DNA from: Acidobacteriota bacterium
Lineage (GTDB): Bacteria; Acidobacteriota; Vicinamibacteria; Vicinamibacterales; UBA2999
Assembly: GCA_018000455.1 (NCBI GenBank)
Contig: JAGNJW010000003.1
Location: forward strand, 62,001 to 126,000
Length of the DNA stretch: 64,000 bases
Direction: 5' to 3'
The notes beneath the pieces were generated by a model. It saw nothing but the letters and a program-made list of their open reading frames with translations, had not been told where the DNA came from and searched no databases. The position numbers were made by a program, and so were the translations under genes. Below, piece after piece: positions 18,741 to 33,526 of this stretch (the stretch's first letter is position 1; each line of letters opens with the position of its first letter).

Positions 18741-19446
18741 ACGGCGCCTTGACGGCCAGCAGCCCCGTGTAGATCGCCATGCCGACCACGGCGTGGATGC
18801 CGTGCCGATCGAGTTCGTCGATCTCGGCTTCGGTGGTGATGCCCCCGGCGGCCGTCACCTGCCGCGATGTTGCCCGCGCCACGGCCAAGATCGCGCCCAT
18901 GTCGGTGCCCTGCATGAGCCCCTCGCGATCGACGTGCGTGTAGAGGAACTCGTCGCAGTAGGCTTCGAGGCTCTTCACCGCCCGCACCGCCGTGATCGGC
19001 AGCGCCGTCTTCCAGCCGTGGATCACGACCTGTCCGGCACGGCTGTCGACCGCGCCGATGATGCGCTTGTGGCCGACGGCCCGCACCAGCTCCTGCGCAA
19101 ACGCCAGGTTGAGGTAGTGATCCTGTGGGTCGCCGGCCCGCGCGCCTCGGTAGAGCGACGAACCGACGATCACGTGCGTCGCGCCGGCCTCGACGAGCTC
19201 GAGTGCCCTCGTCGCCGACCGCACGCCGCCGCCCACCCGGCACGGCAGGCGCGCTGCGATGTAGCGCACGAGCGCGTCGTTGTTTCCCGTGGCCATGGCG
19301 GCGTCGAGATCGATGAGTTGCACGGCCGTGAAACCGCGGAACCTGTCGATCCAGCCGTCGATGTCGGTCGACTCGACGGCCAGCTTCTCGCCCTGCACGA
19401 GCTGCACGATGCGCCCGGCCTTCAGATCAATCGATGGAATCAGCAC
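18730..19446 (-). CDS. hisA: HisA, ProFAR isomerase, outside the his operon
   Basis: The 238-aa TIM-barrel protein starts (GTG) LIPSIDLKAGRIVQL, with the catalytic Asp in SIDLKAG. It has the phosphate-binding segments CRVGGGVRS and HVIVGSS, then YTHVDREGLMQGTDM with the second catalytic Asp, and TAAGGITTEAEI. It catalyses the Amadori isomerisation of ProFAR to PRFAR in histidine synthesis. The barrel end (LLAVKAPFTG) is short but complete. It is the last gene of a minus-strand run of unrelated exported enzymes, 34 bp after an amidohydrolase. The other his genes lie 8 kb away on the same strand. Confidence 0.9.
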   Translation of the reverse strand: MLIPSIDLKAGRIVQLVQGEKLAVESTDIDGWIDRFRGFTAVQLIDLDAAMATGNNDALVRYIAARLPCRVGGGVRSATRALELVEAGATHVIVGSSLYRGARAGDPQDHYLNLAFAQELVRAVGHKRIIGAVDSRAGQVVIHGWKTALPITAVRAVKSLEAYCDEFLYTHVDREGLMQGTDMGAILAVARATSRQVTAAGGITTEAEIDELDRHGIHAVVGMAIYTGLLAVKAPFTG

Positions 19447-27545: not shown

Positions 27546-28301
27546 TCAGAGGCGGACGGGTACGCTGCGGGCCTGGAGGAACTGCTTGAGCTCCGACACT
27601 CCGTGCGTGTTGAAGTGGAAAATCGAGGCGGCCAGCGCCGCGTCGGCGCGGCCTGCGGTGAAGACCTCGGCGAAGTGCTCGAAGGAACCCGCGCCGCCCG
27701 AGGCGATCACCGGAATCGCCACCGCATCCGACACGGCGGCCGTCAGCGCGCAGTCGAAGCCGGACTTGGTGCCGTCTCGATCCATCGACGTCAGCAGGAT
27801 CTCGCCGGCGCCGCACTGTGCGGCCTGACGCGCCCAACTGACTGCGTCGCGCGGTGTGGCCGCGCTGCCGCTGCGCGTATAGGCCGTCCAGCGATCGCCG
27901 TCGCTCTTGGCGTCGATGGCCACGACCACCGCCTGGCTGCCGTAGCGTCCGGCCAGCCGCGTGATGAGTGATGGGTCGGCAAGCGCTGCCGAGTTGAGGC
28001 TCACTTTGTCGGCGCCGGCGTCGATGACCGCCGCCGCGTCGCTTTCGTTGCGAATGCCGCCGCCCACGCAGAGCGGCAGAAACAGCTCGCGCGCCACCGC
28101 CTGGATGGTGTGCGCCCGCGCCTGCCGCGCTTCGAGCGTGGCCGTCACGTCGAGAATCACCACTTCATCGATCCCCTCCAGGTCGTAGCGCCGCGCCAGC
28201 TCTCCTGGGTCGCCGGCCGCACGCAGGCCCTCGAATTTCACGCCCTTCACCACCTGTCCGTCGCGCACGTCGAGGCACGCGATGATGCGCTTGGCCAGCA
28301 T
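27546..28301 (-). CDS. hisF: HisF, imidazole glycerol phosphate synthase cyclase subunit
   Basis: The 251-aa TIM barrel starts [20 protein letters not shown], with the catalytic Asp in [18 protein letters not shown] and [13 protein letters not shown] are phosphate-binding loops, and [15 protein letters not shown] carries the second catalytic Asp. With HisH it turns PRFAR and ammonia into imidazole glycerol phosphate and AICAR. The ATG overlaps the hisH stop by one base (TAATG). It is the last gene of the his operon in this window. Confidence 0.96.
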
Positions 28302-28915
28302 TACGGCACCCCCACGAGCCAGTTGCGCAACACCTGCAACCCGGCCTGTCCAGATTTCTCGGGGTGGAACTGCACGCCCGACACCAGCCCTTCTTCCACT
28401 GCCGCGGTGAACTCGATGCCGTAGGAGCTCGTGGCGACGGTGCCTCTGGCCAGCGGCGCCGCGTAGGAGTGCGTGAAGTAGACATGCGAGCCGTCGGCAA
28501 TGCCGGCGAACAGGCGCGACCAGCGCGGCAAGGCCAGCGTGTTCCAGCCCACGTGCGGCACTTTCTGCCGGGCGCCGGTTGCGGGCGCCACATCCGGCAG
28601 CCGCTCGCACGTCCCCTGACAGACGCCGAAGCCCGGGACGTCCGGCGCCTCGGTGCTGCCGCCGAAGAGCCACTGCAGGCCCACGCAGATACCGAGCAGC
28701 GGCGAGCCGGCGTCGAGCCGCTCGAGGATGGCGTGGCGCCAGGCTCGATCGAGTGTCTGTGTCGCGCCGAAGTGGCCGACGCCAGGCACGATCACGCCGG
28801 CGGCACCATGGAGGTCGGCCGGATCAGACGGCGTGTAGACGTCGGCGCCCACCGCGGCGAGCGCCTTGCGCACCGACGTGAGGTTGCCAGCGCCGTAGTC
28901 GACGAGCGCGATCAC
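28301..28915 (-). CDS. hisH: HisH, glutamine amidotransferase subunit of IGP synthase
   Basis: The 204-aa class I glutaminase begins (GTG) [14 protein letters not shown]. The oxyanion segment is [10 protein letters not shown], the nucleophile Cys is in [12 protein letters not shown], and the His-Glu pair is in [11 protein letters not shown]. It provides ammonia to HisF. The start is a GTG overlapping the hisB stop (GTGA, 28912-28915), so the frame further upstream is not part of the gene. Confidence 0.95.
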
Positions 28916-29499
28916 AGCAGCCCCTTCGTGCTCGGCAGCATCCTGGCCATCCGCGCGTCCTTCGCACAGGCCACCCGCAGGGCGCGCGCGAAGGCCTTGA
29001 AGCACGCTTCGATCTTGTGATGGTTCGAACGGCCGTGCATCACCTTGACGTGGACGTTGGCTCGGGCCGCCGAGGCGAAGCCTTCGAAGAAGTCGGTCAC
29101 GAGCTCGCTCTGCAGATCGCCGACCAGGCGCACCCGCACCTTGGTGTCGACCACCGTGTGCGGACGTCCGCCGAGGTCGATGGCGACGACCGCCAGGGTC
29201 TCGTCCATCGGCATCACGAAGTAGCCGGCGCGGTTGATGCCCTTGCGGTCGCCGAGCGCTTTGTCGACGGCCTGACCGAGCGCGATGCCGATGTCTTCGA
29301 CGGTGTGATGCTGGTCGACGTCGAGATCGCCCGTGGCGGCCACCGCCAGGTCGAACGCCCCGTGGCGGGCCACCAGGTCGAGCATGTGATCGAGGAAGCG
29401 CACGCCCGTCGCGTTCTCGAAGCGTCCCCGCCCCTCCAGCGTGAGCGCGACCCGGACGTGCGTTTCAGCCGTCTTGCGGTCGACTAGTGCCCTGCGCAC
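28912..29499 (-). CDS. hisB: HisB, imidazoleglycerol-phosphate dehydratase
   Basis: The 195-aa protein is the mono-functional IGPD, without the HAD phosphatase half that E. coli HisB has. It begins (GTG) [18 protein letters not shown]. The manganese-binding repeats [16 protein letters not shown] and [16 protein letters not shown] are present, as is [21 protein letters not shown]. The GTG at 29499 lies 16 bp inside the end of hisC. Histidinol-phosphate phosphatase must be encoded elsewhere. Confidence 0.94.
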
Positions 29500-30560
29500 A
29501 GTGCCTCCAACGCGGCCACGGCCGCGCGCGTGTGTTCGACGACGCCTGCGGTGACGCGGAAACACCCGGCGCAGCCGGGCTCCTTGCTCCTGTCGCGCAC
29601 GAGCACGCCGCGGGCAATCATGCCGGCCACGAGCTCGGGCGTGCGATCGCCACCGTGCACGAGCACGAAGTTGGCGGCACTCTCCCAGTGCCTGAGACCC
29701 AGCCGCGTCAGCGCCTCGTAGAGCAGCGTCTTGGACACGGTGGCCTGCGCCACGGCCCACGGCACGAACTCGGTATCGATGAGGGCCGCGCGCAGGGCCG
29801 CCACCGCCACGGCGTTCAGGTTGAGGAGCGGCATGACGTAGCGGATTGATTCGAGGAGCGCCGGCGACGCCACCAGCACGCCCACGCGCATGCCGGCAAG
29901 GCCGTGCGCCTTGGAGAACGTGCGGCCCACCATCACGTTGGGATACTCGCGAACGAGATGCAGCATGTGCGAACCCGCGAAGTCGTGGTACGCCTCGTCG
30001 ATGAGCACTAGCGCCTGGCCGGCGCGCTCGATGATGCGCCGCACGTCGGCTTCCGCCACGGTCTGACCGCTCGGGTTGTGAGGCGTGTTCACGTGCACGA
30101 GACGCGTGTTCGGCCCGATGGCGGCGACCACCGCCTCGGTGGGATACGCGAACTGGGCATCCATCGCCAGCGCCACGGTGCGCGCGCCGAGTGCCGCGGC
30201 GTTGATGAGGTAGGGCTCGAAGGCCGGGAGCGCCAGGATCTGCTCCGGCTGGCCGCCGGTCGGTGTCGGCGTGGCCCCCAGGGCGACCAGCGCCTCGGGC
30301 GCCCGTTGCACCAGATAGCCGATGGCGGTCAGCAGCAGCCCTTCGTCGAGACCGTTGGTCAAGACCACCCAGTCGGGCGGCACGCCGAGATACTGCGCGG
30401 TCTCCCGCACCGCGGCCTCGTAGTCGGGATACGTCGAGACGTCGAGCGGCGACATGGAGCGGATGGCCGCCAGCACCCGCGGCGAGCAGCCGGCGGTGTT
30501 CTCGTTCAGATGCAGGCGCAGGCCCGGACCCAGATTGGGCATTCCCTGGATGGTCGTCAT
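29484..30560 (-). CDS. hisC: HisC, histidinol-phosphate aminotransferase
   Basis: The 358-aa fold-type I PLP enzyme shows NENTAGCSP at the N-terminus, [12 protein letters not shown] and [12 protein letters not shown]. The PLP lysine lies in [16 protein letters not shown], and a late Arg in [10 protein letters not shown] binds the phosphate substrate. It transaminates imidazole acetol phosphate to histidinol phosphate. It overlaps hisD upstream by 4 bp (ATGA at 30557) and hisB downstream by 16 bp. Confidence 0.93.
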
Positions 30561-31861
30561 CGAACCGCGTCCTTTCGCGCCTTGGCGCTAGGCGCCGGCG
30601 TGCTCCGGCCGACGGTTGGGACGTCTGCGATGCGGAGGTCGATCGACCGGGCGTGGCCTTCGAGACCCTCGGCGCGGGCGATGGTCGTCACCGTGTCGGC
30701 GATGGAGGCCAGGCCGGCTTTGGTCAGTCGTTGCACTGACACGAGCTTGACGAAGTCCGCCGTGTGCAGACCGCCCCGGACGCGGGCCATACCCGCCGTC
30801 GGCAGCGTGTGGTTCGAGCCGATGGCGTAGTCGCCGGCCACCTGCGCCGTCCACGCCCCGATGAAGATCGCGCCGGCGTGCCTGATGCGCCCGGCCCGCG
30901 CCTCGGTGTCTACCACGACGTGCTCGGAGGCGGCCTCGTTGGCCAGTGCCACCGCCTCATCCATGGACTTGGTGACGATGATGCCGCCGTGGTGCCAGAG
31001 CGCCGTGCCGGCCGGCCCCGTCTCGGGCAGCCGGCGCGCCACCTCCTCGGCCACCTCGCGGGCCAGCGACATCTTCGAGGTGAGGAAGACCGCCCGGGCG
31101 TCGGGGTCGTGCTCGGCCTGGGCGATGAGGTCGGCGGCAATCCACGACGCCGGACCTCGGTCGGCCACGATCAGGATCTCGGTCGGACCGGCATAGAAGT
31201 CGATCGGGCAGTCGGCCGCCACGAGTGCTTTGGCCGCCGACACCCAGCGATTGCCGGGGCCGACGATCTTGCTGACCCGCGGTACGGTCTTGGTGCCGTA
31301 GGCCATCGCCGCGATCGCGTGCGCGCCGCCGAGCCGGAAGACGCGGTCGGCGCCGGCCTCGACGGCCGCCGCCATCAGTACCGGATCCGCCGACGGCGTG
31401 CAGACGATCACCTCTGGTACGCCGGCCACACGCGCCGGAATGGCCGTCATGAGGAGGGACGAGGGCAACGGATAGCGCCCGCCGGGAACGTAGCAGCCGA
31501 CGCGTTCGAGCGGAATGACACGCTGCTCGACGCTAGTTCCGCGCAGGGGCGACACGCGCCATTCCTTCGGCCGTTGCGCCGCCGCTACTACGCGAATCGC
31601 CTGCGCCGCCCGCTTCAGCGCCGCCCGCACCTTGGCCGGCGCCTTCTTCGCGCCGGCCTCGATCTGGGGACGCGACACCTCGAGCGCACCGCTCCAGCCA
31701 TCGAGCGCCCGCGCGTACTCTTTCAGCGCCGCATCTCCCTCGGTGCGCACCCGGGCCACGATTCTGGCGGCCGTCCTCTCGGTCGCGCGATCGCGAATAG
31801 CCGTCGGCTTCAGCAGCGCTCGCACTTCGTCACGGTTCGTCGATTCGACAATCTTGATCAT
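30557..31861 (-). CDS. hisD: HisD, histidinol dehydrogenase
   Basis: The 434-aa protein has the family signatures [61 protein letters not shown] and [15 protein letters not shown]. The zinc-binding and catalytic region is near [19 protein letters not shown]. It carries out the last two oxidations to L-histidine with NAD+. Its start is separated from hisG by about 200 bp, the only real gap in the operon, which contains a perfect hairpin. Confidence 0.96.
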
Positions 31862-32062: not shown

Positions 32063-32953
32063 CTAGAGGACGATCTTGTTGAGCGGATATTCGACGATGC
32101 CTTGTCCCCCGGCGGCCTTGAGCTTCGGGATGAGCGTGCGCACCGTCTTCTCTTCGATGATGGTGTTGACGGCCACCCAGTCGTCATCCGACAGCGCGGA
32201 CACGGTCGGGCGCTGCAGGGCCGGAAGCTGCGCAATCACCTTGTCGAGGTCGCTGCGCTTCACGTTGAGCATCAGCCCGACGCGGCTCTGCGCCTCGATG
32301 GCCGCCGTGAGCAGGAGCGCGATCGTCTCGAGCTTCTCGCGCTTCCAGCCATCGGCCATGGCCTTCGGGTTGGCGACCAGCCGCGTGTTGCTCTCCATGA
32401 GCGTGTCGACGATGCGCAAGCGGTTGGCGCGCAGGGTCGAGCCCGTTTCGGTGGCTTCGACGATGGCGTCGGCCAGTACCGGTGGCTTCACCTCGGTGGC
32501 GCCCCACGAGAACTCGACATCCACGGTCGTCTGCCGGGCGGTGAACCACGCCTTGGTCACGCGCACGAGTTCGGTGGCGATACGCTTGCCCTGCAGGTCT
32601 TCGGCGCGTTGCACGGGCGACGCCTCGGGTACGGCCAGCACCCACTTCACCTTGCCGAAGCTCTGCTTGGAATACACCAGATCGCACACCGGCACGAGCG
32701 GGGATTCGTCGGGGTGACCGATGGCGTGTTCCTCGATCCAGTCCATGCCGGTGAGGCCGGCGTCGAGCACGCCGTCACTGACATACCGCGCCATCTCCTG
32801 AGCTCGGATCAGCATGCACTCGATCTCCGAATCATCGATCGTCGGAAAGTAGGAGCGCGTGCTGACGAGGATGTCGAAACCGGCGCGCTTGAAGAGCCCG
32901 ACGGTGGCATCCTGCAGCGAGCCCTTGGGAATTCCCAGCTTCAGCGTGCTCAT
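32063..32953 (-). CDS. hisG: HisG, ATP phosphoribosyltransferase, long form
   Basis: The 296-aa protein begins [20 protein letters not shown]. It shows [22 protein letters not shown] and the PRPP-binding region [16 protein letters not shown]-terminal ACT-like regulatory domain (about residues 215-296) is present, so this is the self-contained long form that binds histidine and does not need HisZ. It catalyses the first, feedback-inhibited step. ATG 32953 overlaps the hisI stop (ATGA, 32950-32953). Confidence 0.94.
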
Positions 32954-33288
32954 CGCGCGGCCTCCGTCCACTCGGTCTCGACCTTGGTGAAGCACGTGCG
33001 CTGGCCGGTGTGGCAGACGTTGCCGTCGCCCTCGCGCGCTGCCCTGACGAGCACCGTGTCGTCGTCGCAGTCGATGAGGATCTGCCGCACGGCCAGGCGA
33101 TTGCCCGACGTCTCACCCTTGGTCCAGAGCGTGTTGCGCGTGCGGCTGTAGAAGGTCACGTAGCCGATCCGCCTGGTGATGGCCCAGGCCTCGTCGTTCA
33201 TGAAGCCCACCATCAGCACTTCGCCGCTTTCATGGTCCTGCACCACGGCCGGCACCAGGCCGTCCAGTTTCGTGAAGTCGAGAGTCAT
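32950..33288 (-). CDS. hisI: HisI, phosphoribosyl-AMP cyclohydrolase
   Basis: The 112-aa protein has the metal-site signature [15 protein letters not shown] followed by [12 protein letters not shown]. The front part shows [12 protein letters not shown] and the conserved [16 protein letters not shown]. It opens the purine ring of phosphoribosyl-AMP. The HisE pyrophosphohydrolase domain found fused in many bacteria is absent, and hisE is not in the window. It is the first structural gene of the his operon, preceded by the attenuator. Confidence 0.95.
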
Positions 33289-33344
33289 CGGTCGTTCCTT
33301 GGTTGCAAGTCTCGGATGGTCCGTCCGGCCGGTGGGGTGCGCAC

Positions 33345-33376
33345 AACAAAAAGCCCCGCCGGATTCCGGCGGGGCT
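33345..33376 (-). terminator. his operon attenuator terminator hairpin
   Basis: On the minus strand AGCCCCGCCGG and CCGGCGGGGCT form a perfect 11-bp stem around a 3-nt loop (33352-33376). A U tract, TTTTTGTTG, follows. It lies 57-88 bp upstream of the hisI ATG and 36 bp after the stop codon of a His-rich leader frame. That is the arrangement of classical amino-acid attenuation. There is no T tract on the plus-strand side, so it acts only on leftward transcription into his. Confidence 0.88.
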
Positions 33377-33412
33377 GCTCAGGTTCTCGGTGAACGCTGA
33401 CGTCGTGTGGTG

Positions 33413-33487
33413 CTACACGTGCAGTCCGGCCGGCCCGCGATGGAGCAGGTGATGGTGGACACGGTGCAGGTGGTGAAGCGCGAACAC
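33413..33487 (-). CDS. hisL: His-rich leader peptide of the his operon
   Basis: This 24-codon frame reads (GTG) VFAL then HHLHRVHHHLLH, RGPAGLHV and stop. It holds 8 His codons, seven of them within 12 consecutive codons. When charged tRNA-His is scarce a ribosome would stall there and let an alternative fold prevent the terminator downstream. The GTG start is inferred; a TTG three codons upstream is in frame, and no strong ribosome binding site is seen. A promoter candidate ends only a few bases upstream, so the leader may be read from a leaderless mRNA. Confidence 0.82.
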   Translation of the reverse strand: MFALHHLHRVHHHLLHRGPAGLHV

Positions 33488-33489
33488 GA

Positions 33490-33526
33490 CCGCCAAAGCG
33501 TAGCTGAAAGCACTGGGAGCTGGCAA
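33490..33526 (-). promoter_or_regulatory. candidate his operon promoter
   Basis: On the minus strand TTGCCA (33521-33526) matches five of six bases of the -35 consensus. Eighteen bases later TACGCT (33497-33502) is a moderate -10. The predicted start, around 33490, is almost at the GTG of the His-rich leader frame (33487). The assignment rests on consensus and position only. Confidence 0.45.

Follow-up and report, generated by a model that had tools for sequence, protein, structure and literature searches.

The 64,000 nt stretch of DNA analysed here (the window) carries a short histidine-rich reading frame directly upstream of the histidine biosynthesis gene hisI, which raises the question whether this frame controls expression of the genes behind it. 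The initial annotation had proposed a classical histidine attenuator in a probable acidobacterium. The host assignment is borne out by the closest named records, which are Acidobacteria/Vicinamibacteria/Vicinamibacterales MAGs. The features of the locus are listed in Table 1. The frame that had been described, with 24 codons and 8 His on the minus strand, was exact to the base (VFALHHLHRVHHHLLHRGPAGLHV). Direct reading also confirmed the perfect 11-bp GC hairpin with a U tract, which starts 36 nt after the stop codon and consists of the stem AGCCCCGCCGG / AAT / CCGGCGGGGCT followed by the tail TTTTGTTGT; the U tract lies about 57 nt before hisI. According to Pfam the operon has the gene order hisIGDCBHF, and a Rieske protein is the product of the divergent plus-strand gene. 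Outside the operon lies another PF00977 gene (window positions ~18760-19443, minus strand), which is presumably hisA. A covariance model of the leader found a single match in the genome of the window, and none at the second PF00977 gene.

Table 1. Features of the leader region and of the his operon (positions within the window).
Feature	Position	Strand	Basis or remark
Promoter	33526-33497	minus	sigma-70-like, read from sequence
-35 hexamer TTGCCA	33521..33526	minus	TTGACA-like hexamer kept in relatives at the same spacing
-10 hexamer TACGCT	33497..33502	minus	18-nt spacer after -35; ends 9 nt before GTG
Predicted transcription start	33487..33490	minus	0-3 nt before leader start codon; deduced from -10 position
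Leader ORF	33413..33487	minus	24 codons, 8 His; GTG start 33487-33485, TAG stop 33415-33413 (direct reading)
His-codon run, codons 5-16, putative sensor	33440..33475	minus	sequence
Antiterminator 5' strand CCGGCCGGACTGCACGTG, last codons of leader ORF	33416..33433	minus	duplex and covariation
Antiterminator 3' strand CCTGAGCAGCCCCGCCGG, terminator 5' arm plus upstream flank	33366..33383	minus	duplex and covariation
Intrinsic terminator hairpin, 11 bp, AAT loop	33352..33376	minus	terminator scan and covariation
Terminator U tract	33343..33351	minus	sequence
hisI, first structural gene	32950..33288	minus	Pfam PRA-CH, E 7e-29; ATG at 33288
hisG, long form with HisG_C	32063..32953	minus	Pfam HisG and HisG_C
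hisD	30557..31861	minus	Pfam Histidinol_dh, E 4e-135
hisC, aminotransferase	29484..30560	minus	Pfam Aminotran_1_2 and operon position
hisB, IGPD, start approximate	28912..29487	minus	Pfam IGPD, E 3e-60
hisH, glutamine amidotransferase, start approximate	28301..28915	minus	Pfam GATase and operon position
hisF, start approximate	27546..28301	minus	Pfam His_biosynth, E 5e-74

Taken alone, the locus provides weak evidence, since the GC-rich window contains many His-rich frames. At least 7 His within 24 open codons were found at 8 places in the window, a number that simulated windows seldom reach. The His run was rejected as evidence in its own right, as GC-rich antisense frames yield similar runs. 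In a terminator scan of 10 kb the hairpin (11 pairs, 10 of them GC) far surpassed the other two sites in strength; with a mean of 3.4 sites in shuffled sequences the count of 3 is unremarkable, and strength alone is outstanding. It is the conservation seen in sequence comparison that raises the predicted attenuator far above chance.

hisI is present in 51 of 59 related genomes, and 50 upstream regions were inspected: 30 of the loci belong to the same family, and a further 20 derive in part from it and otherwise from other sampled families of the order. This comparison, which the initial annotation had suggested, revealed a short His-rich leader (18-31 codons, mostly 5-8 His) in all 50 regions; in 49 of them it is followed, usually 30-52 nt past its stop, by a GC hairpin and a U tract. 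The exception, L040, has kept the hairpin and lost the U tract. His richness is maintained among the relatives, while the exact His positions and the length of the frame drift. In a phylum sample of 396 genomes a covariance model of leader plus terminator matched all 30 genomes of the same order with hisI, and none of 6 without hisI and hisG (Fisher 5e-7, or 1 in 1.9 million, for co-occurrence of the element and his genes, shared ancestry being ignored). Weak R1 matches (E > ~1e-4, partial model) were not counted; by model coordinates they are mostly terminator-only. Six genomes of the order that are 97-100% complete (G038, G048, G054, G057, G198, G308) have neither hisI nor hisG and likely represent histidine auxotrophs.

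By its named records the group belongs to the Acidobacteria/Vicinamibacterales MAGs of subdivision 6, which include Luteitalea. Of the named hisI loci, 79 have sufficient upstream sequence; 65 of them passed an automatic test, and for most of the others a leader was visible on inspection. Three acidobacterial loci (L152, L153, L169) have hisI without a His leader and are apparent leader losses; L152 retains a terminator-like hairpin. Leader and GC hairpin are kept and the U tract before hisI is lost in L040/L154, L162 and L185, which may reflect a shift to another type of control. No leader was found at three hisI loci of the outgroup Desulfatitalea, nor was there a leader with terminator before trpE in 15 genomes or before thrS in 14 genomes of the order. 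For leuA, the LeuA_dimer family was detected in only 2 of 15 genomes of the order.

Attenuation requires an alternative to the terminator, and such a structure is predicted from the last codons of the leader frame. In the window, the leader end CCGGCCGGACTGCACGTG and the terminator 5' arm with its flank CCTGAGCAGCCCCGCCGG form a duplex of -21.5 kcal/mol. Across the 42 loci of alignment A1, pairing holds for 79.6% of cells; with the partner displaced by 1-3 columns it did not exceed 44%. Two-sided changes occur in 7 of 14 antiterminator pairs, and the covariation score was higher than in all 500 shuffles (42 loci), although relatedness can inflate such scores. Permutation of the partners between species, which was added and also keeps relatedness, gave a mean of -24.2 kcal/mol (sd 0.38) versus -26.7 kcal/mol for the native duplexes, and 0 of 5000 permutations were as low. 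The duplex has two recurrent mismatches. For the terminator, 94% of cells are paired and 6 pairs show two-sided changes (42 loci). The RNA of the leader end is read in two frames among the relatives (GRPAGLRALRD and AVRQDCAR), and therefore the RNA rather than the peptide appears to be selected in this part.

The initial annotation had also proposed folding of the leader RNA in its two states. We folded the RNA up to the terminator loop, with the footprint of a ribosome either at the third His codon or at the stop codon. As predicted for a switch, the position of the ribosome shifted the antiterminator probability, from 0.79 in the His-stalled state to 0.08 with the ribosome at the stop (46 loci; L024, L044 and L046 were left out since the automatic placement misplaced their hairpin). 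The corresponding values were 0.43 and 0.15 for shuffled leader ends, and 0.68 and 0.11 when leader ends were swapped between species. Without a ribosome the mean probability was 0.38 and varied between species. The leader of the window favours the antiterminator in this state as well (0.82), and would consequently not show super-attenuation. When the RNA is folded at full length, the GC terminator mostly prevails over the antiterminator; thus, the switch must be kinetic and set before the 3' arm emerges. A protector (1:2) hairpin after the His run did not exceed the shuffles across the alignment, and such pairing was seen in one clade (CCGTTC..GAACGG, CCGCTC..GAGCGG, CCATTC..AAATGG). At four loci (L042, L166, L156, L183) the U tract directly abuts the start codon of hisI (TTTGTTTTTATG), so that a Shine-Dalgarno (SD) sequence would not fit outside the hairpin.

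The start of the leader had been noted to coincide with the start of transcription, and this holds as a prediction: the promoter of the window, TTGCCA-18-TACGCT, ends 9 nt before the GTG, a spacing that recurs in the relatives. When the best promoter within 75 nt upstream of the leader start was searched without bias in 74 non-redundant loci, the distance from the end of the -10 box to the start codon was 9-10 nt in 54 of the loci and 6-12 nt in 71. A promoter score of at least 18 was reached by 97% of loci versus 8% of shuffles. Among 41 loci that share this spacing, the T, A and final T of TAnnnT each hold 1.7-1.84 bits, and values are about zero for most of the spacer; the two hexamers and the start codon account for most of the information. 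A T located 5 nt before the -10 box (1.29 bits in 41 loci) lies outside the usual hexamers and is perhaps a lineage-specific promoter element. SD-like motifs were found at 3 of 82 leader loci, compared to 30 of 64 for hisI. From the promoter position, the untranslated leader is predicted to comprise about 0-5 nt. The start codon is AUG in most relatives and GTG in the genus of the window. Thus, the His leader frame appears to encode a leaderless leader peptide; for Acidobacteria 10-19% leaderless genes have been predicted (PMC3160421).

The element very probably controls the hisIGDCBHF operon as a transcription attenuator of the ribosome-mediated type, as judged from sequence and folding models. 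The defining features of this class are a leader rich in His codons (8 of 24 codons; 50 of 50 regions of the order), an intrinsic terminator between leader and first gene, and a mutually exclusive antiterminator under ribosome control, the last of these as obtained by computation; all three were found. RNA polymerase would start at, or few nt from, the leader start codon, and a ribosome would load on the 5'-terminal GUG without SD sequence and trail the polymerase. With ample His-tRNA the ribosome would reach the stop codon and cover the last leader codons, which could then no longer pair with the 5' arm of the terminator; the hairpin would form and transcription would terminate before hisI. 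If His-tRNA runs low, the ribosome would stall in the His run about 10-30 nt further upstream, the free leader end would pair with the emerging 5' arm, and the polymerase would pass the blocked terminator into the operon. By this mechanism the histidine genes should be switched on only at histidine shortage. The comparison of genomes shows the leader, the His codons, the terminator, the alternative pairing with its covariation, the promoter spacing and the target operon; the start site, the stalling of the ribosome and the response to histidine are what we infer from sequence.

Other explanations for the locus have to be considered. A conventional, SD-dependent attenuator with a transcription start further upstream would make the leaderless appearance a coincidence. 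The transcription start is a prediction from promoter position, and the leader of the window's genus starts with GTG and not with ATG, which would fit this view. On the other hand, nearly all upstream conservation resides in the hexamers 9-10 nt from the start codon, the -10 box would occupy the very position of an SD sequence, such motifs are almost absent (3 of 82 loci), and about 13% leaderless genes are predicted for Acidobacteria (PMC3160421); we consider an SD-led leader unlikely. It is also conceivable that the hairpin ends a stand-alone sRNA or lowers expression constitutively, and that the his genes have a separate promoter between hairpin and hisI. The gap of 57 nt in the window would allow this, and attenuated leaders can serve as small RNAs, as known for rnTrpL of S. 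meliloti (PMC7298713). A generic promoter scan reported no site between hairpin and hisI; it also failed to report the conserved leader promoter, since the hexamers are below the consensus threshold of the tool, and its negative result therefore says little. The covariation between leader end and terminator arm would be needless for a plain terminator, and in several relatives only 7-20 nt separate the end of the stem from hisI, which leaves no room for a promoter and implies that transcription must read through. Such an arrangement is very improbable.

The possibility that a small His-rich protein with a function of its own, e.g., a metal-binding peptide, is encoded by the frame and precedes the operon by chance finds some support in the capacity of short His-rich proteins for metal binding and in the conservation of a His-rich frame. 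This contrasts with the drift of His positions and frame length and with the conservation of the C-terminal half as RNA in different reading frames, and a free-standing protein gene would hardly covary at its end with a terminator, occur once in the window's genome by model match, and precede his genes in both hisI-first and hisG-first operons. We regard such a protein as highly improbable. Control by a T-box or a metabolite riboswitch instead of a ribosome would have precedents, since his genes are under T-box control in Firmicutes and some Actinobacteria (PMC9413887). However, neither the window nor 20 relatives gave a match to any Rfam family at its threshold, T-boxes included, and the leader, which is mostly reading frame, extends over no more than about 110 nt before the terminator, so that there is hardly any likelihood of RNA-based sensing of this kind.

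The hisL leader has an SD-led start and a multi-hairpin structure with a pause site. The acidobacterial element shares with hisL of E. coli and Salmonella (RF00514) the run of His codons in a short leader, the Rho-independent terminator before the first his gene with an alternative antiterminator, and the biosynthetic his operon as target (PMC9413887). It differs from hisL in lying outside RF00514, in having hisI, or hisG in other families, as first gene, in its apparently leaderless start and in the position of the antiterminator strand within the last codons of the frame. The RF00514 covariance model matched neither the window (E values up to 5) nor 20 relatives (up to 0.5). His-leader attenuation as proposed in the initial annotation is therefore the best explanation, whereas the term classical has to be qualified for a leader that is apparently leaderless and contains an antiterminator strand in its frame.

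Leaderless leaders are known from other systems. In Sinorhizobium meliloti the attenuator RNA of trpL (rnTrpL/peTrpL) also starts at the leader ATG; unlike the acidobacterial element it senses Trp and controls trpE(G) in an alphaproteobacterium, and roles in trans have been reported (PMC7298713). Mycobacterial polycysteine short ORFs are likewise leaderless, rich in one amino acid and tune a downstream operon (Canestrari 2020, as cited in PMC9031893); they use Cys and act on downstream translation, whereas the acidobacterial element has an intrinsic terminator. Candidates in Firmicutes (B. cereus group, Peptostreptococcaceae, Erysipelotrichales) combine a His leader with terminator and antiterminator, as does the bacillar hisS/hisZ leader with its His peptide before his genes. 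In contrast to the acidobacterial element they belong to another phylum and have 3-5 His in a row, and a leaderless start is not described for them in those passages of PMC9413887 and PMC2965389 from which these descriptions derive.

Ribosome-mediated His attenuation is known in Proteobacteria and has been proposed in some Firmicutes (PMC9413887). In 2010, leader-peptide systems were said to be known only in Proteobacteria and Actinobacteria, plus the newly added bacillar hisS/hisZ, and almost no predicted acidobacterial attenuator had an assigned function (PMC2965389). In agreement with the view that this regulation is undescribed in the group, no report of a His attenuator in Acidobacteriota, and no description of a leaderless His form or of its reach in the phylum, was found in the open-access papers searched. 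The working principle, as deduced from sequence comparison, is the same as for hisL; the leaderless form is a prediction, and the element spans a large part of the phylum.

The same design precedes hisI in family f24; it is present, among others, in 14 of 14 f24 genomes that had been selected mainly for their absent or marginal model scores. Some f24 loci have a bulged terminator and weak antiterminator scores. The leaders of the named Acidobacteriaceae/Terriglobia records (L187-L197) are of the f24 type. The design was also found before hisI in f73 and in one genome of f42; in f32 and f75 it precedes hisG. In f36 a His-rich, AT-rich frame, often ending in RVN, lies about 220-280 nt before the HisG match (L201, L206, L207, L212, L213, L216, L217, L219, L225, L228); its promoter spacing is not clearly leaderless, no distinct antiterminator was recognised, and it possibly represents a second His attenuator design. 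The covariance model had no match in four genomes of the same class from other families (f16, f17), and the predicted element is thus widespread in the phylum and not universal. An f24 locus of a different kind, L090 (G334:C1:3267007-3268241, reverse strand), has a short Thr-rich frame (MLELSITHTSTTTTTAIGGSSG), a GC hairpin and a T-rich tail before a second, shortened thrS, with the full thrS elsewhere, and resembles a Thr attenuator for an extra threonyl-tRNA synthetase gene.

It is a tentative idea, which we consider rather doubtful, that the leaderless His attenuator is of ancient origin and in use throughout the Acidobacteriota, with 5'-terminal start codons under selection for immediate loading of 70S ribosomes. 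If true, the switch would be independent of SD initiation and might sense the state of ribosomes or initiation factors besides His-tRNA. A conserved His attenuator in several acidobacterial families would provide a readable amino-acid regulator for a large soil phylum, and this natural series of predicted leaderless attenuators may help to understand how leaderless initiation keeps pace with RNA polymerase.
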